A DNA stretch of 64,000 bases from a bacterium. Its GTDB lineage: Bacteria; SZUA-182; SZUA-191; JAJRXT01. Positions 26,801-63,150 of this stretch are shown here, piece by piece. How positions within the stretch are numbered: the first letter of the stretch is position 1; the number at the start of each line of letters is the position of its first letter. The stretch spans positions 1 through 64,000 of the forward strand of contig JAJRXT010000085.1 of the NCBI GenBank assembly GCA_024276125.1, given 5' to 3'. The position numbers and the translations under genes are program-made. Under the pieces are notes generated by a model that saw only the letters and a program-made list of their open reading frames with translations, did not search any database and was not told the DNA's origin.

Positions 26801-28840
26801 GGCAACGGCGGCGGAGCGCCTAATGACAATACCCGCGACGGCATCCATTTCCGCTATAATATCAATTCAGATATAAATGTAACCAATAATAATGTTTCCA
26901 GTAATGTAAAACGCGGTATACGTTTTCATGACAACGCGGGCATTGATGTGGTGATTGCCTCCAATACCATCAGAAACAATACCTATCAGGGACTGGAGTT
27001 CGGGGATAATTACCTGAGCACTACGGCAGGGGCTACGGCTACGGTGGCGGTTCGCAATAATTATATTGAGCGTAATGATTATACCGGCATACAGTTTAAG
27101 GATAATTATGACCTAGACGACATTCTGCTGTATTCAAATTATATATTCAGCAATTCGCCGGTGGATAATTGGGGCGGGGTATGGCTGCATCATTCCGATA
27201 ATGTGCGCTTAGAGAAAAATTATATTGTAAGTAATTCCGGTATAGGGCTTAGAATACAAGATTGTTCGCCTGTAATAGGCGCTGCTGATTATGTTTTCAC
27301 TATAAGCGATCCGGCTTGCTGGAGCGGGCAGACCAAAAACTATATGGTGGATATATATAACCACAGCCAGCCCTACGACTGGACGCCGTGTTCCGGCAGA
27401 TACTGGCTGCGGGATAAGATGGAAACCGAATCTGTAGCTAAAGGCGGTAATGTTATTCGCCAGAATAGCTCCTGGGGGGTACAGACCCGCGGCGAGCAAA
27501 ACGGCAGGGCGGCTCAAGTCTATGATAATGATACCTCAACCGATTGGAGTACCTCCACGCTGAATGATTCACATGTTGGCTCGCATTGGATTTATTTTGA
27601 TTTGGGCAGCTCTAAGGCGATAACCAAAGTACGCGTATATGCCAGATACAATGAAACCACCTGGGATGTGTATATATCTAACAGTACCAGCGCTTGGGGC
27701 GCTAAAGTAACCACCTTTACTACAGGCGGCGAGCTTATCCCGGGTTGGGATGAGACCAACGCATCCGGTACGGGTCAGTATATTAAGCTGGAGTCTACAG
27801 GCGGTATTGACGGTAAAATAAAGGCTGATATATTTGAATTTGAATATGATGCAGGTTCAGGCTGGGCTGATCCGATAGGCGGCGCTACGTGTAGTAAGTT
27901 AAGCGATGATAATGACGGTATAGCGGCAAGTACCAGAGACGGGAATACGTCTACTCAATGGCGCACTCATCCGGGCGATATTACAGAGCCTCATTGGATT
28001 AATTATGATCTTGGCGATTATGATAATCCGGTAAGCAAACTGCGTATATTTACCGGTACGAGCGATACCCGCACTTGGAAGGTGTATTTATCTGATCGCA
28101 AATATGAAACCTTAAGAAGCCCGCCGGCGGATGACTTGCTTTATTCCGGCTGGGTGGTAGGCGGCAGCGGCGCTTATGAGACTTCAATTGTATTTAGTTA
28201 TCAAAATATTACTCCGACTAACGGCGCAGCCTACTGGAAATTTGATGATGGAGCAGGTAGCAGCGCGGCAGATAGTATCGGCGCAAATACCGGTACATTA
28301 GTAAATACTCCGGTATGGACCAGCTCTTCTGCCTTCTGGAAACCGGGTCAGTATTCGCTTGCTTTAAACGGCGCTACTCAATTGGTAGAAGTAGCTGATT
28401 CTACTGATGTTGATTTTGGTCCGTCGGTTAATTTTACAATTGAGGCTTGGATTAAGGTTAATTCCGGCGGCTCCGGTATTATCCTTAAGAAAAACGGGGC
28501 AGGCTGGAGTCCTGATCCGGGCGGGGAAGAAAAAGCATATTATTCCCTGTACACTACTACTAACAAAACGGTGGTATTTGATATTCGCGATAATACCAAT
28601 TATAAATATCAGACCCTTACTTCGATTAATTCTATAAAACCGGGACGCTGGCATCATATTGTGGTTGTAAGGGATATTGCTAATTCTCAGTTAAAAATGT
28701 ACGTAAACGGCGTTCACATGGTAAGCCGCAGCCTGACCGAATCAGGCGATATAAGTAATGGCAATCGTTTGATTATAGGCGCAGGTGAAGCTGACGGCTC
28801 TGCATCTTATGAGAATTATTTTGACGGGCAGGTTGACTAG
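14840..28840 (+). CDS. Giant right-handed parallel beta-helix (NosD/PbH1-like) secreted protein, part 1 (ends at in-frame TAG within a LamG domain)
   Basis: Signal peptide 'FTCWAVLFGLAGFFINTPAYA'; long series of 'NxIxxNxxxGIGxxxxxxPxIxxNxIxxN' turns; F5/8-type-C-like 'HWIYFDLGSSKAITKVRVYA' modules; LamG interrupted at '...YFDGQVD*'. Confidence 0.9.
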   Translation: MYRSVVKNIGYRFTCWAVLFGLAGFFINTPAYAVDYTVPGTHADLQSAIYSAAADGANSNITITAAGVYNGPFVVPYTASERSYELNIIGTSSLSRDQIILDNPTAGIARGIPIPAVIAAEFDVIGTMQVTGMPMKLSHLTITASEILQNGGMEGTYSAGLAPDWAKSGAISVSEVTYDTMAALEVLDGDQAQAFTNSDINNYIYTVIPGASLGTERTYTFSIWFRRTGGAGNVIAQLIGAATASLSTSIVNYPDMYNQLTYTFTTPAIAADLTIKLYCSDTATSAVADGAAIASPLTAGVFFKGPAAANSLQGVSDCVVRNIGHISKKAGNAYQPASWADLDDPMIGYGDDVHGNAIVAFSGSTPLITDNDIRYNYDGVSIADNTLGSSGVQGDNPRLWSTDYADYTYWQMGQRIRYNARFGVAVRNGATPYIGMRDGGGAWPLDYANDISANGFANIAMQDDSAPRIYYNFIQGNFDYLYDLYYAGERNPSGRGIIGRENSAAIIVGNWIFDHNKAGVAVRDNATPQVGYAASWLTDPTDVRVNNIYGNNYYSVLDVSDPDYIACTHGAFDNIDCAAVGSMDGAQADVYNNYINYNYFAGVGSRDWAAPDVRSNWLEGNVLGMSFMSVRDSSTVAARIGGSAAGEGNEMYYNEIGIAIRNSGNRVNRVLIEGNQIYENVDTGRGVGIAVNNSYVNITDNTISSNAYADLPSGRKSAIALFNSSDAKITYNRILNNLGVGISAQDSVVEIENNLIADNFSGTYGYGVMLGGVDGDDYIGYLFNGGFEDEQLGSETCCYSVAPEWKMAGSIWATENTADTLVGSSSQEFGVGGANSSYLYYPAMVAAGYQYHFSGFLYKTAGTGTLYVQLSEPAYNSVYTTLSVSGAGWTQISHTFQAVSDDLYVKIYATGAGTKGVADDFELIKTKPGSLVKKFNHNLMVGDAWYFGRYDTNLVYIEGNTNVRELKHNILGRCRLGVLVEPGQSEHTGSLPVQGALAANEIKLAAGASSVDDAYVGMVLVIDASSSAIPKEAVVTAYNGTTQVAAIEYPVWVTAPAAGETYTLYSRRGRPDPGSIDYNLVYAWAAGADTDGVSDGYMLNGLLPGENTYYYGEYYGSPVAAFFKDSNHENALVQDYHVQEDAPIYSYTYRNGAYDCNGTHLGPDCNFTYPPVDYPYYWPTDTPFPAAPAADSAAPQLISINPADGYATASANTRITIYLQDQGTGTANSGFSAGGITRSSLQVQINSPTYSAVYTYGDPELSILPDYNNASQYNVLFTPSGSLGIGTVNVGISVADVQGNIYSTGTPYSFTTVSGDAAAPQIVDFFPKAENSCITSHLQPADIPIQFDLVDTASGVDIESGSLTVQTWTAGGALPQSLYNGSIYSYTVTKNTPLYSSYTVFYRPDCDYDNSVVVSATVAAYDQENNILSTRRKFCIAADTTPPEDVAYFKAKVVAQAVVSLTWDASVDSPLYDGSRPDPCDTGDLSHYELWVCGADITDSLICTFGDWQLWRTGISNVAVSLDLYDLPEGKYKFRLRGVDNAGNKSIGALSNKNVFYPYGEPVTLYTGYFDDNYDGMSDDFSGMYLSNWLHLGDGAFNISASKLAVSSSDAELLAHDFSAGNFEYTADLTLGAGEAGYLLMRKLEDSEVGSTGYAAFVDLANSRIGIYHLGDAAVVAQTAITPNTGTYNMKVTAVGNQISLTVTGAASGSTSYNTATTYSFGQVGIWQPDTGSGLTVSVVEFDDIVIKDYTDRWSSTGSWNTTGTVGGSYSMQPLSDNQDIQVTDLALPDSFILQADVTIGAEGSEGCLMFNKENEGSVVTSGYMACIETTVTSDYVRIYRKDGNLATPIATTTSQTIDTGTTYHLKLMVSGSTIALYGSSTAVKPYDYDRWAVASDSTYSNGAAGFWQQTGKGADVTYDNLTFGETSAFRIPDSSLGNQYIVTYYAGNPTQQYNTIQSKINNASYGDYLYFAGCNPSQVIYDIGDNIIQLKRGVSLLGDGPSCTMIRGSGLAVITASNESTIEGIRISGTNKKPVGIYCGNTSPMLIDNEIVSCHDGIRIGGVDGTQPTITGCAIYGNGRMGIGNNVFSAAWIFDNKIWGNALLGIGSRDNAHPRIEDNLIGSAGAASQPWQQGNGYVGIGNRGSSFAKVVRNRIKQNYGLGIGSRADSAPTIERNIVNDNSVHGIGSYKNSTPTIISNRVYNNSRIGIGSHDDVQAVISYNTVYSNLDRIGIATLEQAVVTINNNIVYNNKGIGIGFGDGSPAFTGTATVYGNQIFANGDSPNDSGGIGAQGLTGNASITIKNNRIYSQYYQNAIGFLNLNPSGNDQANITIQNNIIDNSTVTSNGDFGIEVYGGYGYTVSITGNTIRNFGRSGMRLMNLSTASAVTVQNNNITSCGAKDYVYAYNANMTWTNSVIYSCPDTDGCPAAMGVQLTDSHLSTSSVTGNTIAYNTYSGIGMRNTDGFINASNQVYENGNLYTVPGTGGGDICPRCDPLGAGASSGDGGVTVTALPGGEELRIYENGNEIYNNNVGDIRIKPGTLGTVYLNDSQVPGGSSGGQLNGYGVVYDCFDSADASPGGECNTTVTGMTFSGNDRYGILVRGPYSQNLIIENNIIQSNMTVSNSNNIICAGTANEDHVGGGIALTCGARPVIRDNIIRNNGADLRSEGKGSHSGINMWQAGDTQIYSNEIYGNANDGIDLRDTPIVTTDPKYVGVGPPQIGVAGQTANKIRNNARFGIGATDASSLEAGYNELYENQSGGIGFYQLTGTANIYSNSIYSNTGSSLSEVGGIGMKYLSGTVNIRNNIIRHNVYTNSYDYPAGIGVYRPTGGSLTIEGNTITSNQAHSYSDAGGIGLKGLSSASKGTLSNVYITSNRISHHKYGTGNQAAVSFKWLDLSSGNITIRNNKKDGMGLYDNATGVRFKELTNANVTINDNLIQSNINPSGEGASAVGFRGYSSGSPMTGVKVDINNNIMSNNRFTYTAYDKASVTFKYCKLYSSDYIKVRGNRINNTGNNGIEFRYVGGVTGHVAHVYIGTDAEAPGASNDILNIPASHNGIRFEDCTYGDGVQMNILNNNNVEGGIVFRDTKLTGLYIKGNANIYDGHTPGGMGGMMGVCECGMGMPDWDNNGIQGKVNTYAYGSGGVIPIEINNNGIRNNGKLGVFLPIKNDVGTVALNVEGNTFEHNGWAGFFSPSGSSACLDSFIFSGNTIYDNGLIGGNSPGYDSDGVVMRCLSASVGAKFTNNIIHSNKVNGLSLRDCDGVTVSGGKFYSNGIRGIGSRNFSNFTVEGGAWIYSNGKLAGSEDDWCGVGFDDATVTVRDSFVYGNYGAGIALRDVVNGTIVSNQIYDNRKTGIKFLRSNSTLTIRNNTIVSNGQDDYIDNSGLRDASGLRAKDSTFANITDNIFRNNKFSGIASYNTDGYIGPNNEIRYNGDTAKGGGDCGGLQGPGSGDGGVAVRNLGTYDTLIVSGNTVESNYLGSVSRKDCKGTVRLDGQGVDCAPYWDRADAKVYVGPDGVYVNNSFRSSSFTVDCTDPLYNDLAGGITGGKVWGVAIVGGIKNVIFRNCTVNNNMTTDNNLGDQGISVGGGVLVGPGVEAEVYNNTIYNNGFEIAQGSGALAVDGSYTTEWMTPTDDTVEPHWIKFDTGTSSQTITKVQIYAAAGSVARSWDVYVHNSTNWNNIGNVLDTFTAGGSGAGWYESATFSGSGRYITLKSSGGSVSDGDFAEFQYYNGASYVTPDFHQVCASLLGGNSGVTLRCVGNVNIHDNNIYSNWNQGIEGRNVIGTIGPNNLVHDHTKANRVIGFRNYINATIYSNEVYNNNYGGIGVNSIIGTVIIDKNYVHDGGNNIFPGIGMSNNDGTAVFIARNNTVEGHKQSFEAQKSEGAYPLDIQIYSNTADVEPNGAGWNGVRFRQLKGASISVRNNVLTGGASSSRFGIMFQDNGWYSTSEHTDITIYSNTILNFKRTGIRTQDNVNTTITISKNNITGNGGGAPNDNTRDGIHFRYNINSDINVTNNNVSSNVKRGIRFHDNAGIDVVIASNTIRNNTYQGLEFGDNYLSTTAGATATVAVRNNYIERNDYTGIQFKDNYDLDDILLYSNYIFSNSPVDNWGGVWLHHSDNVRLEKNYIVSNSGIGLRIQDCSPVIGAADYVFTISDPACWSGQTKNYMVDIYNHSQPYDWTPCSGRYWLRDKMETESVAKGGNVIRQNSSWGVQTRGEQNGRAAQVYDNDTSTDWSTSTLNDSHVGSHWIYFDLGSSKAITKVRVYARYNETTWDVYISNSTSAWGAKVTTFTTGGELIPGWDETNASGTGQYIKLESTGGIDGKIKADIFEFEYDAGSGWADPIGGATCSKLSDDNDGIAASTRDGNTSTQWRTHPGDITEPHWINYDLGDYDNPVSKLRIFTGTSDTRTWKVYLSDRKYETLRSPPADDLLYSGWVVGGSGAYETSIVFSYQNITPTNGAAYWKFDDGAGSSAADSIGANTGTLVNTPVWTSSSAFWKPGQYSLALNGATQLVEVADSTDVDFGPSVNFTIEAWIKVNSGGSGIILKKNGAGWSPDPGGEEKAYYSLYTTTNKTVVFDIRDNTNYKYQTLTSINSIKPGRWHHIVVVRDIANSQLKMYVNGVHMVSRSLTESGDISNGNRLIIGAGEADGSASYENYFDGQVD

Positions 28841-52320: not shown

Positions 52321-54909
52321 TTATCTCGCCGAAAAAAAATAGGAAAACTTGCGGTAGATAATATCAACAAAGAATAAAAAAAGCGCAATTAGCAAACAAA
52401 CAGTATCCAGGGCGGTATATGCTTTTTCTTCCCTTTGAGGAATTTGCAATATATTATCGTCTATATTCAGTACATTGCCGGCAGTAATCGAGGCTGTTGT
52501 ATCTAATAGTCGATAATTTATACTCTTATCCATTGCTTCTGCGCTATAGGCTGCAACAAAACCTGCGCTGGCCGATTCCACTACCTTATCGCCCTCAAGC
52601 TGAAGTATCTTTACCAGATAATTACCCTTATCTTTAACGGCAGCTTGCGCCTCATATCTACCCGGCGCTGTCTGCTTTAGCCTGAGCTTTTTCACGCTTA
52701 AATCAGGATAAATAATATTGGCGGCAAGGGAAAGTTTATTTTTAAATTCACCGCTATCATCCAATACATCCAGCCAGATATTAAGTCTGTCCGCTTGCAG
52801 AACAAAATTTGGAATAAGTCTTGTATTCTGATTAATACTTGAGGCGCTCCAGTTAAAAATCTGCCGCCAAAACAGCTTAAAATACGGCCAAGTGAGCCAA
52901 TTAGCGCTATTTGCGGTAAATACCGCCGCTTTGCCTAAGCCATAATTACCAACCGACAATATCGGTTCGCCTTGTTCGCTTACCAGAATATTCTGTGCAT
53001 CAGATTTGACCGTAGTCGCCACATAAGTCATAATCTGCGGAAATGGAGGATTTATCCCTTTTATTATTGGGTGATTATTTTTTATTACCACCTTAGTCTG
53101 TTTATCTCTAATAAAGGATTGAGTGGCAATCTGTAAATCCTTAAAAAATATTTTCTCCAGTTGATGATAATCTTCAGTTAAAAACAGCCTGCCGGAACCG
53201 CGTTTCGATATTTCAGCCAGTAGTTCTTTATCGCAATCAGCGCCTATACCCACACTGCTTACAGTAATACCGGCACCGGCGATATCATTAAGTAACAAAC
53301 TAAAATCGGTTTTAGCCGATTTTCCGTCGGATAATAAAAGAATATGTTTTTTATCCGCTTTTATATTTTTTAACCAGTTATAGGCTAAGGCAAGCCCCGG
53401 TTTTATATTGGTTTTACCTTTAGGCTCTATTGATTTAACCGCTTGTATTATCTCATCTTTTTTATCTCCGCCGGTAAGCGGTAAAATTGTCCTTGCCTGC
53501 ATATCAAAAGCCGCGACACCTATCATATCTTGTGCCTTAAACCAATTTAAGCCGGCTATAACAGCATCTGTGGCTATCTCCAATTTGCTTTGTGCCCCTA
53601 TTGTATAGCCCATGCTCTCTGATTTATCCAGTACCAATACCATAGCTATCCTGCTTTTGCGGTTCTTATCCTCTATATACATATTAACCGGTAAAATTTT
53701 TTCTAAGGGTGTATCCAAATATCCGCCCGGCCCCAAGCTTTTGTCCCCGCCGATTACTATTAAGCCCTTACCCAAATCATGTACCCAGGCTTTAAGCATT
53801 CTCATCTGAGCGCCGGTTAGGCTGAACGCTGAAATATTATCAAGTATGATATGAGAATAATTTTGGTACGCAAGGGGCGTTTCTTCCAACTGAGTTGCTG
53901 AGATTATATCTATAGACGATTGCTGCGGTAAGTGCGAAAACAACGGGCTGGGCGATTGGGGATTCCGGCTCACATAAAGCAAGCGCGATTGCCCGTAAGA
54001 ACTCATCCAGCAGGCGCCATAATTATTCTCAGATATACTATCGCCTATTGCAGAAACCTTAGCCGATATAATATAAGCCCCCGGCTTATTTATGGTAACA
54101 GGATATCTTACAAGCTGTGAGCGCTTATCGTCCAGAATTACCGGTATACCGGCGGCTATTGGCTGTTTATTTAAAAACAAAGACAATTCGGCTTTTTTAA
54201 TTAAAGATGCCCCCAATTTTATTTCAATATCAACCGGTTTTCCTAAAGTTGCCTGATGCGGTATATATACCGCATCTATCCATACATCCGGTTTTTCATG
54301 AACATCCCCTAAGGGTAATACATTGACCCTAATCTTACCAGAACGCAAATTTATAAGCTGCGGGGTCAAATCACTCCAGTGATGATTGCCGTCTGATAAT
54401 AAGACCAGCTTTTTTTTATAATCCGGCGGATAAAGATAGCCAGCTTTTTTTAAAACAGCGCCTATATCAGTATCCCATATCTTATTTTCGTTAGTAATTT
54501 TTCCGCTTAGTTTTTTAAGGTATTTTTTAAAGGTTTTATAATTATAATCAATCGGTTTTAAGATTGCTTTAGCTTCAGTATCGAATAATATCAAACCGGC
54601 TATATCGCCTTTTTTCAATTCGGATAAATTATTATCAATCCATTTAATACCTTGGATAATATCATTGTCGCTCATACTAGCAGACACATCCAAAGCGAAG
54701 ATATAACAATTTCTTGATAATGAACGTATCGTATAGGGTTTAGTCAGCGCCAGCGCTAAAAACAATACAATAAGACATTTAAAGACCAATTGCTGTCTTA
54801 AGCTCACCGGCTCTACATTGTGGCGGTTTCGCTTATATATCAAATAAAGCGGTATAAAAATCAGCAGAAGGCTCAAAAAATACGGCCGTTCAAAGCTAAT
54901 ATACGGCAT
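52321..54909 (-). CDS. VWA-domain membrane protein, 862 aa
   Basis: Two VWA-like segments 'IFALDVSASMSDNDI' and 'MVLVLDKSESMGYTIG', 'GKGLIVIGGDKSLGPGGYLDTPLEKILPV' glutamine-amidotransferase-like motif. Confidence 0.85.
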   Translation of the reverse strand: MPYISFERPYFLSLLLIFIPLYLIYKRNRHNVEPVSLRQQLVFKCLIVLFLALALTKPYTIRSLSRNCYIFALDVSASMSDNDIIQGIKWIDNNLSELKKGDIAGLILFDTEAKAILKPIDYNYKTFKKYLKKLSGKITNENKIWDTDIGAVLKKAGYLYPPDYKKKLVLLSDGNHHWSDLTPQLINLRSGKIRVNVLPLGDVHEKPDVWIDAVYIPHQATLGKPVDIEIKLGASLIKKAELSLFLNKQPIAAGIPVILDDKRSQLVRYPVTINKPGAYIISAKVSAIGDSISENNYGACWMSSYGQSRLLYVSRNPQSPSPLFSHLPQQSSIDIISATQLEETPLAYQNYSHIILDNISAFSLTGAQMRMLKAWVHDLGKGLIVIGGDKSLGPGGYLDTPLEKILPVNMYIEDKNRKSRIAMVLVLDKSESMGYTIGAQSKLEIATDAVIAGLNWFKAQDMIGVAAFDMQARTILPLTGGDKKDEIIQAVKSIEPKGKTNIKPGLALAYNWLKNIKADKKHILLLSDGKSAKTDFSLLLNDIAGAGITVSSVGIGADCDKELLAEISKRGSGRLFLTEDYHQLEKIFFKDLQIATQSFIRDKQTKVVIKNNHPIIKGINPPFPQIMTYVATTVKSDAQNILVSEQGEPILSVGNYGLGKAAVFTANSANWLTWPYFKLFWRQIFNWSASSINQNTRLIPNFVLQADRLNIWLDVLDDSGEFKNKLSLAANIIYPDLSVKKLRLKQTAPGRYEAQAAVKDKGNYLVKILQLEGDKVVESASAGFVAAYSAEAMDKSINYRLLDTTASITAGNVLNIDDNILQIPQREEKAYTALDTVCLLIALFLFFVDIIYRKFSYFFSAR

Positions 54910-56800
54910 CCGCTTTCTCCTTTCTATACCACCATTTAAATACTATCAAACCTAATGCCAAGAAGGTAAGTAACATCCGGCTTTCTATGTGACCTAAGAT
55001 TATCCGCCATATTCCAGGCTTACTACTGTGAGATACGGCGGAAAACCCGGGATTTATATGCGATTCACCCTGCGGCATACTTACTACAAAATCAGTCTTT
55101 ATATCTTTAAAAACAAATTGATATCGTCCTGCATATTGCGGGTTATAATAATTATCCTCATCCTTATATAAGGGAATAGTCTTTTTAATACCGTCAGGCT
55201 GGATTATAAAGGCGGTAGTATCTTCGGTTAGGGCTTGTTTTGGTATTGGTATTAAATATGGTTCGCCGACCTCCAATTTAACCGCTTTTTGATTATTGCC
55301 TTGCCCCGCAAAAAAATCCATTACATTAAATAAAAACATGGGGAAAGACGGCTGTAAGGTAAAATCAGTGTCCTTAAAGGCAAAACCCAGCCGTAGCAGA
55401 TTGTATCCCGGGAAGCTGTCATATACCAGTATGGGAATTTGCCCGCTTTTGATTAATATCCGGCTTTGCGGATATAGCTTCAGCCGATTTACCCGCTTTA
55501 TCTGTAGGCCGGACAGCTCAAGATAGTTCATTACAGGATGAGTCCGCTGCCAGCTTAAGGGTTTAATTATCTTTACCGGCGATTTACCCTGCGGATTTAT
55601 TATCAGGTTTTGGCTAGATAGTAGTCTATCCGGTGTAAATCCGTAAAAAAGCGCTATATCAAAGCTTAGATACGGCTGCTCTTCTGCCAGTTTTTCATAT
55701 TGTTTTTTGCTTAAGGCGGTGATTTTTAAGCGGGGTAACACGCCAAGCGCTTTTTTTAGGCGTTTGTTATTTACATTTACTGCTAGCAATGAAATATCGT
55801 ATAAATCAGATAAGATGTCATAGCCTTTATTATCGGTATTAAAAGCATCATCCCCCTCACCCAAACCCTCTCCCCGCTGGGGAGAGGGCAGGGTGAGGGG
55901 AGTTTGCACCATAAGGTGCGTTAACTCGCAGCTTATAATTCCTCCCATCTCAGATCGCCCTTGTATAATTATGCTTTTTTCCTCATTAGCGCCTAAATGT
56001 ATTTTTCTATTATCCAAAGGGGTATTGTTTAATTGAGTCTGTAAATTAACCATTTTGGCGCCGGCGGCATAATTAGCCAAGCGAATCATTATCTGATAAT
56101 CTACGGGAGACAAGATTTTCCGCCTAGCCTGCACATTTAATATCGCCGAATTATCAGCCTGCCCGCCTATGCCTATAAGCCGTACTTCGGGATAATTCTT
56201 TGATAAACCGGCAATATCAGGGCTGGACATATCGCTTATAATATATATTTTGGTTTTTTTGGGTAAATTTGAGATTAAGACAGGTAAAAGTTGCGGAAAA
56301 TTATCTGCTGCATCAGTAGATGAAATTTTATTTATTTGGTTTATTGCGGAAGCTGTCGTATCTGTAAAATTAAATGAGTCATTATTATTTGCGCTTATGG
56401 CTGAAATTATCAGATATTTGCTATTCCCTAAATTATTTATCAGCTCTATAGCCTGTTTTTTAGCCAGCGCCAGCCGGGTTGTATCACCTTGCTTGGTATT
56501 CATACCGGCTGAATTATCAATTAAGATTACAACTGGCTCATCCGCTGAGACTCCTTGCGTAAATTTGGGCTTAGCTATCGCCAGCGCCAAGAATAAGACA
56601 ATTAATATCTGTAACAACAAGGTTAAGTTGCGGATTAGCTGCTGCCAGACTGTTTTTGGGCGGGCTTGTTCGGCTATTTGTACCCATAAAAAATAGGCGG
56701 GGGTCTTTAAGGTGATTTTTTGGGATTTTATAAAATAAAGGGCAATAATAAGCGGAATAAGAAACAGCAAATATAAGGACAGGGGATATTGAAAACTCAT
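54896..56800 (-). CDS. BatA/VWA-domain membrane protein, 634 aa
   Basis: N-terminal 'MSFQYPLSLYLLFLIPLIIALYF' BatA-like TM, 'VVILIDNSAGMNTKQGDTTRLALAKK' VWA; overlaps the downstream VWA gene by 14 bp. Confidence 0.85.
   Translation of the reverse strand: MSFQYPLSLYLLFLIPLIIALYFIKSQKITLKTPAYFLWVQIAEQARPKTVWQQLIRNLTLLLQILIVLFLALAIAKPKFTQGVSADEPVVILIDNSAGMNTKQGDTTRLALAKKQAIELINNLGNSKYLIISAISANNNDSFNFTDTTASAINQINKISSTDAADNFPQLLPVLISNLPKKTKIYIISDMSSPDIAGLSKNYPEVRLIGIGGQADNSAILNVQARRKILSPVDYQIMIRLANYAAGAKMVNLQTQLNNTPLDNRKIHLGANEEKSIIIQGRSEMGGIISCELTHLMVQTPLTLPSPQRGEGLGEGDDAFNTDNKGYDILSDLYDISLLAVNVNNKRLKKALGVLPRLKITALSKKQYEKLAEEQPYLSFDIALFYGFTPDRLLSSQNLIINPQGKSPVKIIKPLSWQRTHPVMNYLELSGLQIKRVNRLKLYPQSRILIKSGQIPILVYDSFPGYNLLRLGFAFKDTDFTLQPSFPMFLFNVMDFFAGQGNNQKAVKLEVGEPYLIPIPKQALTEDTTAFIIQPDGIKKTIPLYKDEDNYYNPQYAGRYQFVFKDIKTDFVVSMPQGESHINPGFSAVSHSSKPGIWRIILGHIESRMLLTFLALGLIVFKWWYRKEKADAVY
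55852..55928. repeat. Palindromic repeat inserted in frame in the BatA-like gene
   Basis: ccctcacccaaaccctctccccgctggggagagggcagggtgaggg plus gcaccataaggtgcgttaact; encodes ELTHLMVQTPLTLPSPQRGEGLGEG. Confidence 0.85.
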
Positions 56801-58930: not shown

Positions 58931-59749
58931 TTATTGATAAGGACATCCGCCATTACATTTAAAGGTGTAATCCAGCCCGTGGCGGGCAATAAGACTGTGC
59001 TTGGATATGAAATTTTCTCTGGAGGCATCCTCTGTAACTCTTCCTTGTTCCAAGACAATAAAACGCTCACATAACTGAAACAAAAGTAATAGATCATGAC
59101 TTACGATTATTTTGGTAGTCTTAATAGCGGAGACCAACTCCATAAATAAACGTTCATTGCGAGGGTCCAAATTACTAGTCGGCTCATCCAATACCAGTAT
59201 TTGTGGCTGCATGGATAAAACCGTAGCCAGCGCCACGCGTTTGCGTTGACCGAATGATAAATGATGAGCCGGACGATTCTTAAGACCGGAAAGTCCTACA
59301 TCTTTTAATGTCCGCTCTACCCGCGTTTTGACCGCCTCATTATCCCACCCCATGTTCATCAGACCAAAAGCAACATCATCATATACAGTAGGACAAAAAA
59401 GCTGATCATCAGGATGCTGAAACACCATACCCACCAAGCGGCGAATCTTTTTTATATTGAGAGCATTTATGGCCAAGCCGCCGATGCTTATTTCACCTGT
59501 TCCTCGTAAAATACCGTTTAAGTGTTTAATCAGGGTTGATTTACCGGCGCCGTTATGACCTACAATTGCTACTGATTCTCCCTCATAAACAGTTAGGTTT
59601 AATCCCTGTAGAGCGGCAGTGCCGTCGGGGTAATTATAATATAAATTGTTTATCTCCACCGCTGCTTTTTTAAGCTGCGGCTTGGGCTGCTGCGAGTATT
59701 CATAATGCTCATCTTCTTTGATGGCCGTATTAAATTGATGCGGAGGCAT
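58931..59749 (-). CDS. ABC transporter ATPase, CbiO/EcfA-like
   Basis: 'GHNGAGKSTLIKHLNGIL' Walker A, 'VGMVFQHPDDQLFCPTVYDDVAFG', 'LSFGQRKRVALATVLSMQPQILVLDEPTSNLDP'. Confidence 0.93.
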   Translation of the reverse strand: MPPHQFNTAIKEDEHYEYSQQPKPQLKKAAVEINNLYYNYPDGTAALQGLNLTVYEGESVAIVGHNGAGKSTLIKHLNGILRGTGEISIGGLAINALNIKKIRRLVGMVFQHPDDQLFCPTVYDDVAFGLMNMGWDNEAVKTRVERTLKDVGLSGLKNRPAHHLSFGQRKRVALATVLSMQPQILVLDEPTSNLDPRNERLFMELVSAIKTTKIIVSHDLLLLFQLCERFIVLEQGRVTEDASRENFISKHSLIARHGLDYTFKCNGGCPYQ

Positions 59750-59757
59750 GGCTTTAA

Positions 59758-62355
59758 TTATTCCTTACTGGTAATTGGTATCTGAGATTTTCCATTTTTA
59801 TATCTAAGCAGCCGGCTGGAATTTAAAATTACCCCGATGCTGTTTAAAATATGCAATATCCCGCCGGTAAGCGGAGAGATTATCCCGCCTGCTCCCAATG
59901 TAATCCCGACAGCATTCATAGCCATGGAATAGGTATAATTTTGTTTAATAATAGCCATCGTATGCAGGCTCAGCCGCCGCAGGCTCAATATATCTTCTAA
60001 ATTATCCCTGCTTAAGGAAATATCGGCGGTCTCAACCGCCAGTTCCGAGCCGCCTGCTCCCATGGCTATACCTAAACGCGATTGAGACAGAGCCAGGGCG
60101 TCGTTTACTCCGTCTCCAACCATAGCAACCTCAGCGCCCGCCTTACTCAGCTTATCAATTAAAGCAGCCTTTTCCTCCGGCAGCATTTCATAATAATACT
60201 CATCCAGATCAAGCATTCTGCTTACAGCCTGCGCCGAACGCTTATTATCGCCGGTAATTAAGACTATCTTTTTTATACCCGTTTCTCTTAACTGCCGGAT
60301 AGTCTCTTTGGCCTCAGGCCTTAAATTGTCCCTTATACCAATTGCGCCAATAAGTTGTGTATCTTTAGCTACATATACAACAGTTTCGCCTCTATCCATT
60401 AACTCGGAAATCTCTCCATTCAGCTTTTCCACATCTATATCTATCTCTGTCATCAGACGGTGGCTGCCTACGGCAATAGTTACGCAGTCTTCCATAACTG
60501 CCAGAATACCTTTTCCAGTACGCATTTCACAAGACTTATGCTCAGGCGTAGCAACTCCAAGTTTTTCCGCATGCGCCATAATGGCTAGACCAAGGGGATG
60601 TTTATAGTGCATCTCAGCGCAAGCAGCCAGCGCCAGTACATCTTCAACAGATGCAGTATCCGTGCGGTTAATTACCGTCTCTACAGTAGGTTTGCCGGCT
60701 GTAAGCGTGCCAGTTTTATCCAGACATAGGGTATCGATACGGCTTGCTTCCTCTAAATATCGTCCGCCTTTAACCAGAATATTATTTCTGGCGGCATTGC
60801 CAATCGCTGCGCTTACCGCAGTGGGGGTGGCAATAGCGGCGGCACATGGACAGGCTGTTACTAATACCGTCATGGCGCGGTAAAAATCTCTGGTAACTAC
60901 ATATACCCCAATAGAAAAAATAAAGGCAAATGGTACAAATTTAGCGGCAAACTGATCGGCTATACTTTCAATCGGGGCTCTGGTTTCCAAAGACTCTTCC
61001 ACCAGATGTATCACCCGCGCAAGATATGTGTCATCGCCTACTTTGGCCGCCTTTACTTGAAGATATCCCTCTTCCAGCACAGTACCGGCATACACCGTAT
61101 CTTCAGCTTTTTTGTATACCGGGATTGATTCGCCGGTAATAGAAGCCTGATTTACCGAACCCTCGCCGGATACAATCTCACCGTCTACAGATATTTTCTC
61201 GCCGGTATGAATACAAACAACAGCATCTATAGGAACCTGATCCAATGGTATTCTGACTTCCACATCGTCAACCAGCATCCAAGCCTCATCCTCGCCTAAC
61301 TGAATCAACTCATGAATAGCGCGTCTTGATTTATCCGCAGTATACTCTTCTAAAAGAGTTCCGCAGTTCATAAGCCAGATAACCTCTAGGGCGGTAAGCC
61401 CCTCGCCCATAACAATGGACATAATAGCCGCCATGCTTACCAGAAAATCCAGGCTGAGCTTTTTGTGCTCAATCATATAGGTTATGCCTTCCTTAAATAC
61501 CGGTATACCGGCGACTAAAGCAGTAACTGAAGCCATTTTATTTACTACCGGCAAGGAAAACGGACCGCGTTTGAATATAACTTTTACCAAGGATACGGCC
61601 AAAATAACCCCGGTAGCGACTATACCTAAAAACGGTAAGGCTAAGTCAGATTCCTGATTGTCCTTTTTAGGGCAGCATATTATGTTGTTGTTGTTTTTTA
61701 TTGCTTTAGCCGATTGTACTTTAGACAGGGTGGCGATAATTTCTTCAGGGGTAATTTGTTTTTGGTCATAAAAGACCAATGCCGAACCGGTAATAATGTT
61801 GGTAGTTAAGGATTTGATATTTTTATGATTTTCAGCTTCCCGTTCAAAAGCCTGCGCAATAAGGGGTCTTCTTTTTAATGAATTAATATAAAACCTGACT
61901 CTTCCCGGCAAAAGATGACCAATTGTGTAATCTATCAGTTTTACCTGAGCAGTCTTTTCTTGGGCTGTATTTTGTGCATTATCTTCTGAAGTCTTTTTTT
62001 CTGATATGTTGTCAGTTGATGCGGCTTCTTCTTCTGTCTTGTTGTTTGGCGTTGAGACTTTATTTTTTTGCATACTGGTTTTTTTTTCTTTTATCAGGGT
62101 TACGGGTGGATTTTTATCAGGCTTGCTGTTTTTCTTAGCATAAGCCATAATTTTACAGATAGGCGGGCGGGCATTAGGAGCTATTTCTACCAGATCGAGC
62201 TTTGCCTTACGGGCTAATTCCAGGGCTTTATCCAGAGGAACCACATTTAGATTTTCACCCGAAGCATTAATCAGGCGTACTTTTTTTTGCTTGATCTCTT
62301 TATTTATTTTGGGCGGTTCTTTGGAATTAAAAGATTTTTTTTTAATATTTATCAC
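59758..62355 (-). CDS. IF-3 N-domain / HMA-like domain / P1B-type metal ATPase fusion (GTG start)
   Basis: N-term 'KINKEIKQKKVRLINASGENLNVVPLDKALELARKAKLDLVEIAPNARPPICKIMAYAKKN' = IF3_N; 'GHLLPGRVRFYI' HMA_2-like; 'TACPCAAAIATPTA', 'CLDKTGTLT', 'MVGDGVNDALAL' P1B ATPase motifs; no stop between domains. Confidence 0.92.
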   Translation of the reverse strand: MINIKKKSFNSKEPPKINKEIKQKKVRLINASGENLNVVPLDKALELARKAKLDLVEIAPNARPPICKIMAYAKKNSKPDKNPPVTLIKEKKTSMQKNKVSTPNNKTEEEAASTDNISEKKTSEDNAQNTAQEKTAQVKLIDYTIGHLLPGRVRFYINSLKRRPLIAQAFEREAENHKNIKSLTTNIITGSALVFYDQKQITPEEIIATLSKVQSAKAIKNNNNIICCPKKDNQESDLALPFLGIVATGVILAVSLVKVIFKRGPFSLPVVNKMASVTALVAGIPVFKEGITYMIEHKKLSLDFLVSMAAIMSIVMGEGLTALEVIWLMNCGTLLEEYTADKSRRAIHELIQLGEDEAWMLVDDVEVRIPLDQVPIDAVVCIHTGEKISVDGEIVSGEGSVNQASITGESIPVYKKAEDTVYAGTVLEEGYLQVKAAKVGDDTYLARVIHLVEESLETRAPIESIADQFAAKFVPFAFIFSIGVYVVTRDFYRAMTVLVTACPCAAAIATPTAVSAAIGNAARNNILVKGGRYLEEASRIDTLCLDKTGTLTAGKPTVETVINRTDTASVEDVLALAACAEMHYKHPLGLAIMAHAEKLGVATPEHKSCEMRTGKGILAVMEDCVTIAVGSHRLMTEIDIDVEKLNGEISELMDRGETVVYVAKDTQLIGAIGIRDNLRPEAKETIRQLRETGIKKIVLITGDNKRSAQAVSRMLDLDEYYYEMLPEEKAALIDKLSKAGAEVAMVGDGVNDALALSQSRLGIAMGAGGSELAVETADISLSRDNLEDILSLRRLSLHTMAIIKQNYTYSMAMNAVGITLGAGGIISPLTGGILHILNSIGVILNSSRLLRYKNGKSQIPITSKE

Positions 62356-62654
62356 CTTCCCTGGATAGTCTCTCTGGCTTTATATGCTTCGATAAGTTCT
62401 TCCAAATGTTCTTTTTGTTTAATAATTTCCTGTAATGATACCTTGTTGTTATTATCAAAGCTTAATCTTTTTGCCAGCGAAGGATTATCTTTTAACATAG
62501 CCAGAATAAACTGTACAGAAGATGCTCCCAAGAGAAAATTTATCGCCGGCCCCCCTTTAGAATGGGTAAAATAGCCGAAAACAGCCCCTTTGGCAGCATG
62601 AATAAACTGATAGAACATGTTATCCCAAACGGAATTACGAAAACCTAACAGCAT
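62352..62654 (-). CDS. Small membrane-associated protein, P-ATPase-coupled (100 aa)
   Basis: GTGA overlap with the downstream ATPase start; 'GPAINFLLGASSVQFILAML...SLQEIIKQKEHLEELIE'; paralogous to the 74-aa neighbour. Confidence 0.8.
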   Translation of the reverse strand: MLLGFRNSVWDNMFYQFIHAAKGAVFGYFTHSKGGPAINFLLGASSVQFILAMLKDNPSLAKRLSFDNNNKVSLQEIIKQKEHLEELIEAYKARETIQGR

Positions 62655-62878
62655 TATTCTTTCCCTGTACTTTCTTTGGCTGCCGCTTCCTCAATTAAAT
62701 CTTCCAGATGTTCTTTTTCTTTGATTAAATCTTCCAGGCTTTTCTCACAGGAGGTTTTTTTCTTAAGCTCCGCTATCATATCTTGATCGAAAAGAGTTAA
62801 AACCAGCCGCATAGCTGATGCGCCCCAGAAAAAATTTGCGACAGGCCCCCACCCGATATTTTTCCACTTGGAAACCAC
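62654..62878 (-). CDS. Small membrane-associated protein, paralogue of the 100-aa ORF (74 aa)
   Basis: TAATG overlap with the downstream ORF; 'GPVANFFWGASAMRLVLTLF...SLEDLIKEKEHLEDLIE'. Confidence 0.8.
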   Translation of the reverse strand: MVSKWKNIGWGPVANFFWGASAMRLVLTLFDQDMIAELKKKTSCEKSLEDLIKEKEHLEDLIEEAAAKESTGKE

Positions 62879-62916: not shown

Positions 62917-63150
62917 TTATTCCTGACCGGACGGTTTTTGCGTCACAGCCTCAGCTTTTAAATCTTCAAATGTTTCCTTCCCTTTTTCCAGTAAGACCTT
63001 GCTTTCGTCGGCTATTTGGTAACCGGTTTTAATTAAACCCACTATAGCCGGTCTGGCCTTTTTCATAATAGTAGGTAAAAACTCATAAACTAGCACCGCT
63101 CCGGCGCCAACCCAAAAAGATTTAGAATAAAAAATACCTTTTATCGCCAT
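62917..63150 (-). CDS. Small TM protein resembling DUF5132/DUF1490 (P-ATPase-associated) family (77 aa)
   Basis: One TM followed by amphipathic 'KARPAIVGLIKTGYQIADESKVLLEKGKETFEDLKAEA'. Confidence 0.6.
   Translation of the reverse strand: MAIKGIFYSKSFWVGAGAVLVYEFLPTIMKKARPAIVGLIKTGYQIADESKVLLEKGKETFEDLKAEAVTQKPSGQE

Follow-up and report, generated by a model that had tools for sequence, protein, structure and literature searches.

Two kinds of described system come close to the gene analysed here. The CtpC-type ATPases are P1B6-like zinc pumps with PacL/DUF1490 partner proteins; PacL1 interacts with CtpC at its N-terminal region, and both CtpC abundance and zinc resistance depend on PacL1 (PMC9374683). 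The other system is translational: IF3 represses the non-canonical starts of E. coli infC and of Streptomyces sigR, starts that are often misannotated to neighbouring canonical codons (PMC5472188). In the window, by which we mean the whole stretch of 64,000 nucleotides analysed, one gene joins the N-terminal domain of IF3 (IF3_N) to a metal ATPase.

This fusion is real at the sequence level. Counted from a GTG, the longest frame at 59758-62355 (minus strand) comprises 865 codons with no internal stop, and its stop codon lies within these coordinates. The IF3_N domain (residues 17-75; 62131-62307, minus strand) matches PF05198 with an E-value of 3.9e-23 and 81.8 bits (cut-off 26.9); the match reaches from position 1 to position 59 of the 70 in the profile, where the IF3 linker helix has its base, and the first 85 residues alone also passed the NCBIfam infC model. 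There follow, all on the same strand, a charged, low-complexity and apparently disordered linker of about 60 residues (approximately residues 80-139; 61939-62118), which has no domain match and mostly low model confidence; an HMA_2 domain (PF19991; residues 145-214; 61714-61923; E 6.7e-13) that lacks CxxC; and a P1B ATPase core (residues 303-849; 59809-61449) matching the TIGR01525 heavy-metal P-ATPase model (E 1.6e-165). The translation of the core contains TGES, CPC (in TM6), DKTGT, HP and GDGVND, the full catalytic set. No IF3_C domain was found in the fused protein by profile search, and in this genome it occurs only in a separate infC. An earlier note on this DNA had described an IF-3 N-domain at residues ~1-85, an uninterrupted frame leading through a linker and an HMA-like domain into a complete CPC-type P-ATPase, and the absence of the IF-3 C-domain; the profile searches bear out this description throughout.

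What that note passed over was the type of the pump, along with the small membrane-protein genes upstream. In a tree of 28 ATPases, the pump groups (support 100/98) with same-phylum HMA_2 ATPases and with the DUF1490-linked L072 and L073, which are Rhodococcus and Pseudonocardia pumps located beside DUF1490 (PacL) genes. Its position in the tree thus makes it an HMA_2-clade P1B ATPase related to the PacL/DUF1490-linked (CtpC-type) enzymes. With the latter it has in common the HMA_2 domain, CPC in TM6, QNY..N in TM7, NSSRL in TM8 and the presence of small TM-plus-charged-helix genes upstream. The fused pump differs in its IF3_N head and linker, which add about 140 residues, and in TM8, where the HN motif of the CtpC-type metal-site helix is missing and HI takes its place (LHILNS, as against LHNASS in L072 and L073 and LHIVHT or LHILHT in L159-L161). 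To judge from clade and motifs, the pump probably exports metal, with zinc-like divalent ions as the likely substrates. Orthologous HMA_2 ATPases in two other phyla (L154 in genome G126, and L159-L161) are 38-45% identical to it across the pump, and they begin at HMA_2 and have no IF3_N; the ancestral form was therefore an HMA_2-ATPase to which the IF3 head was added. Many of the strong matches listed in the whole-protein search open at query residues 132-147, directly after the IF3 part and linker. Three of the same-phylum HMA_2 ATPases (L041, L042 and L046) have VDYGTG in place of CPC and keep DKTGT and GDGIND, and are thus pumps without the usual metal-site cysteines.

Directly upstream of the fused gene, on the minus strand, lie genes for two small predicted membrane proteins of 100 amino acids (62352-62654) and 74 amino acids (62654-62878). 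They are tandem paralogues (39% identical, E 6e-14) that share a GPxxNFxxGAS membrane segment and a KEHLExLIE tail, and neither has a family match above cut-off. The next gene (62917-63150, minus strand) encodes a small protein with a TM segment and a charged helix, whose match to DUF5132 is weak (E 0.014, 15.9 bits, below the cut-off of 25). Hydrophobic and charged-helix segments occur in all three of these upstream genes. This protein is 29-32% identical to the DUF5132 or similar proteins found beside same-phylum pumps, and in two such loci (L042 and L046) a DUF5132 or similar gene precedes the HMA_2 ATPase. It is possible, on this evidence, that its product is a PacL-like partner of the pump, although the upstream proteins, unlike those of CtpC-type systems, show no match to DUF1490 and only the weak one to DUF5132. 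The orthologous pump L154, which is 45% identical, adjoins a small membrane protein ending in a long His-rich tail, HGHHHHHHGHDHGHAH, and this neighbour is likely to be a metal-binding PacL-like partner in another phylum. On the downstream side, a CbiO-like ABC ATPase (CbiO/ECF-type; 58931-59749, minus strand) lies 8 bp beyond the fused gene and is possibly co-transcribed with it. The next gene downstream is an aminotransferase, and no CbiM/CbiQ partner was seen in the frames nearby. In L161, too, the related pump has an ABC ATPase frame just upstream of it.

The separate full infC for which the earlier note had proposed a search is indeed present elsewhere in the genome: it is the only infC there, has an intact IF3_C and adjoins thrS. 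Over residues 2-81 the fused N-domain is 55% identical to this gene and at most 49% identical to the infC of relatives, among all those compared. In a tree of 37 infC N-domains plus the fused one, the fused copy falls inside the infC family (90/87) as sister to its own infC, with a support of 93/76 that is below the starred level yet consistent, and its branch has a length of 1.5, compared with 0.44 for infC. Between the fused domain and its own infC, dN is 0.37 and dS is saturated (not computable); 21 of the 26 infC-conserved positions are kept, an estimate of constraint that partly reflects infC itself. Since 55% is closer than the identity to any other infC tested, the head derives from an old, partial duplication of infC in this lineage and not from an assembly that joined the resident gene to the pump.

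The duplication appears to have included the infC initiation signal. The start region is GGAGGTATAGAT-ATC-AAA-AAA-AAA in the genome's own infC and GGAAGGTGATAAAT-ATT-AAA-AAA-AAA in the fused gene. The full layout of its start is GGAAGGTG-ATAAAT-ATT-AAA-AAA-AAA, in which the Shine-Dalgarno GGAAGGTG (62353-62360, minus strand) contains the alternative GTG and ends 6 nt before the ATT (AUU; 62344-62346, minus strand). In each of the phylum's ten infC genes the start codon is ATA, ATC or ATT, 7-9 nt past the GG of a GGAGG-type Shine-Dalgarno, and the fused gene has the same arrangement, with an AUU-class codon correctly spaced at 8 nt. For the ATT, the Shine-Dalgarno is predicted to pair with the 16S tail at -8.7 kcal/mol and has a spacing of 6 nt; for the GTG at 62355 the values are only -4.6 kcal/mol and 0 nt. 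Translation therefore probably starts at the ATT at 62346, whose position matches the infC starts and which suits the Shine-Dalgarno in energy and spacing, and probably not at the GTG at 62355 assumed by the earlier note, which is itself part of the Shine-Dalgarno; the protein would then have 862 residues (59758-62346). Like sigR and infC, the gene may have had its start misannotated to a nearby canonical codon. No leader RNA was detected with Rfam near either the fused gene or infC. From these comparisons the pump gene appears to have taken the infC front end along with its initiation signal, including the class of codon that IF3 represses, and this start region, which the earlier note did not consider, suggests an explanation in terms of translational control.

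With infC, then, the fused gene has in common the N-domain sequence and fold, the Shine-Dalgarno and the AUU-class start, but it has neither linker helix nor C-domain, is not beside thrS and is joined to a membrane pump. With sigR, which has an IF3-repressed GTC start (PMC5472188), it shares the combination of a stress gene and a non-canonical start of the IF3-repressed kind; in contrast, the sigR protein has no IF3 domain, and its control by IF3 is experimental whereas that of the fused gene is inferred.

The head is predicted to retain its fold. In an AlphaFold model of the N-terminal part made with an alignment, residues 11-70 have a pLDDT of 96-98, and Foldseek matches the model to the IF3 N-domains 1tif, 5lmn and 6o6d with a probability of 1.00, so that the modelling suggested in the earlier note comes out in favour of an IF3-N fold. 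For the HMA_2 part of this model the alignment contained no relatives, and we do not rely on that part; single-sequence AlphaFold of the full-length protein gave a pLDDT of only 36. As for the ribosome, IF3 contacts 16S rRNA through residues 63-70, 86-97 and 101-105, and most of its NTD lies away from the rRNA (PMC5037330). Among these blocks the fused head keeps only 63-70, with Asp69 changed to Ala; Gly71 has also become Ala and Tyr75 has become Ser. Equivalents of E. coli residues 63-68 and of Tyr70 form a patch that is retained with the conservative changes V64I and R66K. With the IF3 linker, the CTD, Asp69 and Tyr75 all lost, tight 30S binding by the head is unlikely.

The fusion was seen in a single genome, so that its arrangement cannot be called conserved. 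A whole-protein search of ~650 genomes gave no second IF3_N-pump pairing among the matches listed; in its two large runs the best 2-4 candidates per genome were scored, so that the search may have overlooked a fusion to some unrelated protein, but an orthologous fusion would rank first. A PF05198 search of 64 genomes found the pairing in this genome only, and no such fusion turned up in the phylum's other nine genomes. PF05198 was also searched around genomes G024 and G050, whose phyla are tiny. In 85,462 species genomes, compared by exact 8-residue patterns only, the whole protein has no close relatives. Among the matches listed in an alignment scan with the N-domain, at least 586 stretches were infC genes, none of them running into an ATPase, and in the plasmid and phage collections the listed N-domain matches were infC or unannotated, those of the whole protein to ATPases starting at residue 138 or later. 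We found no description of an IF3_N-ATPase fusion in open-access papers, and an earlier description or database entry may exist outside them. One further genome, the 9-Mb G036, has two IF3 genes (G036:C28 and G036:C22) with open frames of 243 and 268 amino acids, both above the usual length.

Our preferred interpretation, to which we would give an even chance, is that an HMA_2-clade metal-efflux ATPase of this lineage acquired a duplicate of the infC 5' end, comprising the Shine-Dalgarno, an AUU-type start and the N-domain. Initiation at AUU would allow IF3 to keep synthesis of the pump low, and synthesis would rise when IF3 activity is low; we infer this control from the start region. Translation of the upstream gene, which ends 5 nt before the AUU, may be coupled to that of the pump, and the N-domain would most likely be folded and lie in the cytosol as a module flexibly tethered beside HMA_2, with a weak affinity for the ribosome at most. 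The earlier note had proposed co-option of the domain as a cytosolic regulatory or localisation module. Co-option as a cytosolic module agrees with the predicted fold, the 21 of 26 positions and the identity that persists despite saturated silent sites, but nothing speaks for regulation or localisation as such. It is also conceivable, though on balance rather improbable, that the capture was an accident in which all that the gene gained from the infC front end was a soluble leader and a strong start of translation, with no specific role for the domain. The restriction to a single genome, the orthologous pumps without an IF3 head, a branch that is faster than that of infC and the apparent retention of the infC start region all fit such an accident, but an unconstrained leader of 75 residues should have lost its fold by the time that silent sites were saturated, and the predicted IF3-N fold persists, as do 21 of the 26 conserved residues. 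About as unlikely, if not slightly more so, is a start at GTG 62355, which would put the pump outside IF3 control and leave the infC-like start region as a relic. GTG ranks among the normal start codons, and here it overlaps the upstream stop (GTGA), an arrangement that is common in operons, but its weak pairing at zero spacing compares poorly with that of the ATT.

We doubt that the pump is docked to ribosomes, with its head binding the 30S platform (uS11/h23) or the elbow of the initiator tRNA and thereby tethering ribosomes or competing with IF3. The retained fold and 63-68/Tyr70 patch would permit this, residues 63-70 being among the rRNA contacts, but the contact residues 86-97 and 101-105 are missing, positions 69, 71 and 75 are altered and the bulk of the NTD is distant from 16S rRNA in the published structure (PMC5037330). 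Slightly more doubtful still is a feedback circuit with infC, in which the AUU start would tie pump synthesis inversely to IF3 and the IF3-N head would act back on initiation at the membrane, via the 30S subunit or initiator tRNA, to link metal efflux with translation. Finally, that the gene is an assembly chimera of infC and an ATPase gene is extremely improbable. The genome is fragmented (159 contigs) and the fusion was seen in no second genome, but the gene sits in the middle of a 90.9-kb contig, its frame continues through the linker and the small-protein genes upstream look like the neighbours expected for a pump. A join to the resident infC is excluded because its sequence would be near-identical, and a foreign partner is improbable, no foreign infC closer than the resident one having been found. 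If the preferred interpretation of a duplicated infC front end is correct, its interest would be twofold. IF3-repressed AUU-type starts are known for very few genes besides infC (pcnB and sigR), and a stress-type pump that apparently copied the front end of infC and so gained one would illustrate how IF3 control can be transferred between genes. Reuse of a core initiation-factor domain outside translation also seems rare, and the fusion appears to be one such case.

Elsewhere in the window, the region 14840-37286 (plus strand) encodes very large surface-type proteins, in frames of 4666, 1995 and 855 amino acids, with beta-helix/NosD, F5/8 type C, Laminin_G_3 and fn3 domains. These frames adjoin or overlap at 28840/28841 and 34719/34828 and may represent one gene split by frameshifts. 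A BatA/VWA protein (54896-56800, minus strand) contains the peptide LTLPSPQRGEGLGEG, which looks like a dispersed repeat element inserted in the coding frame.
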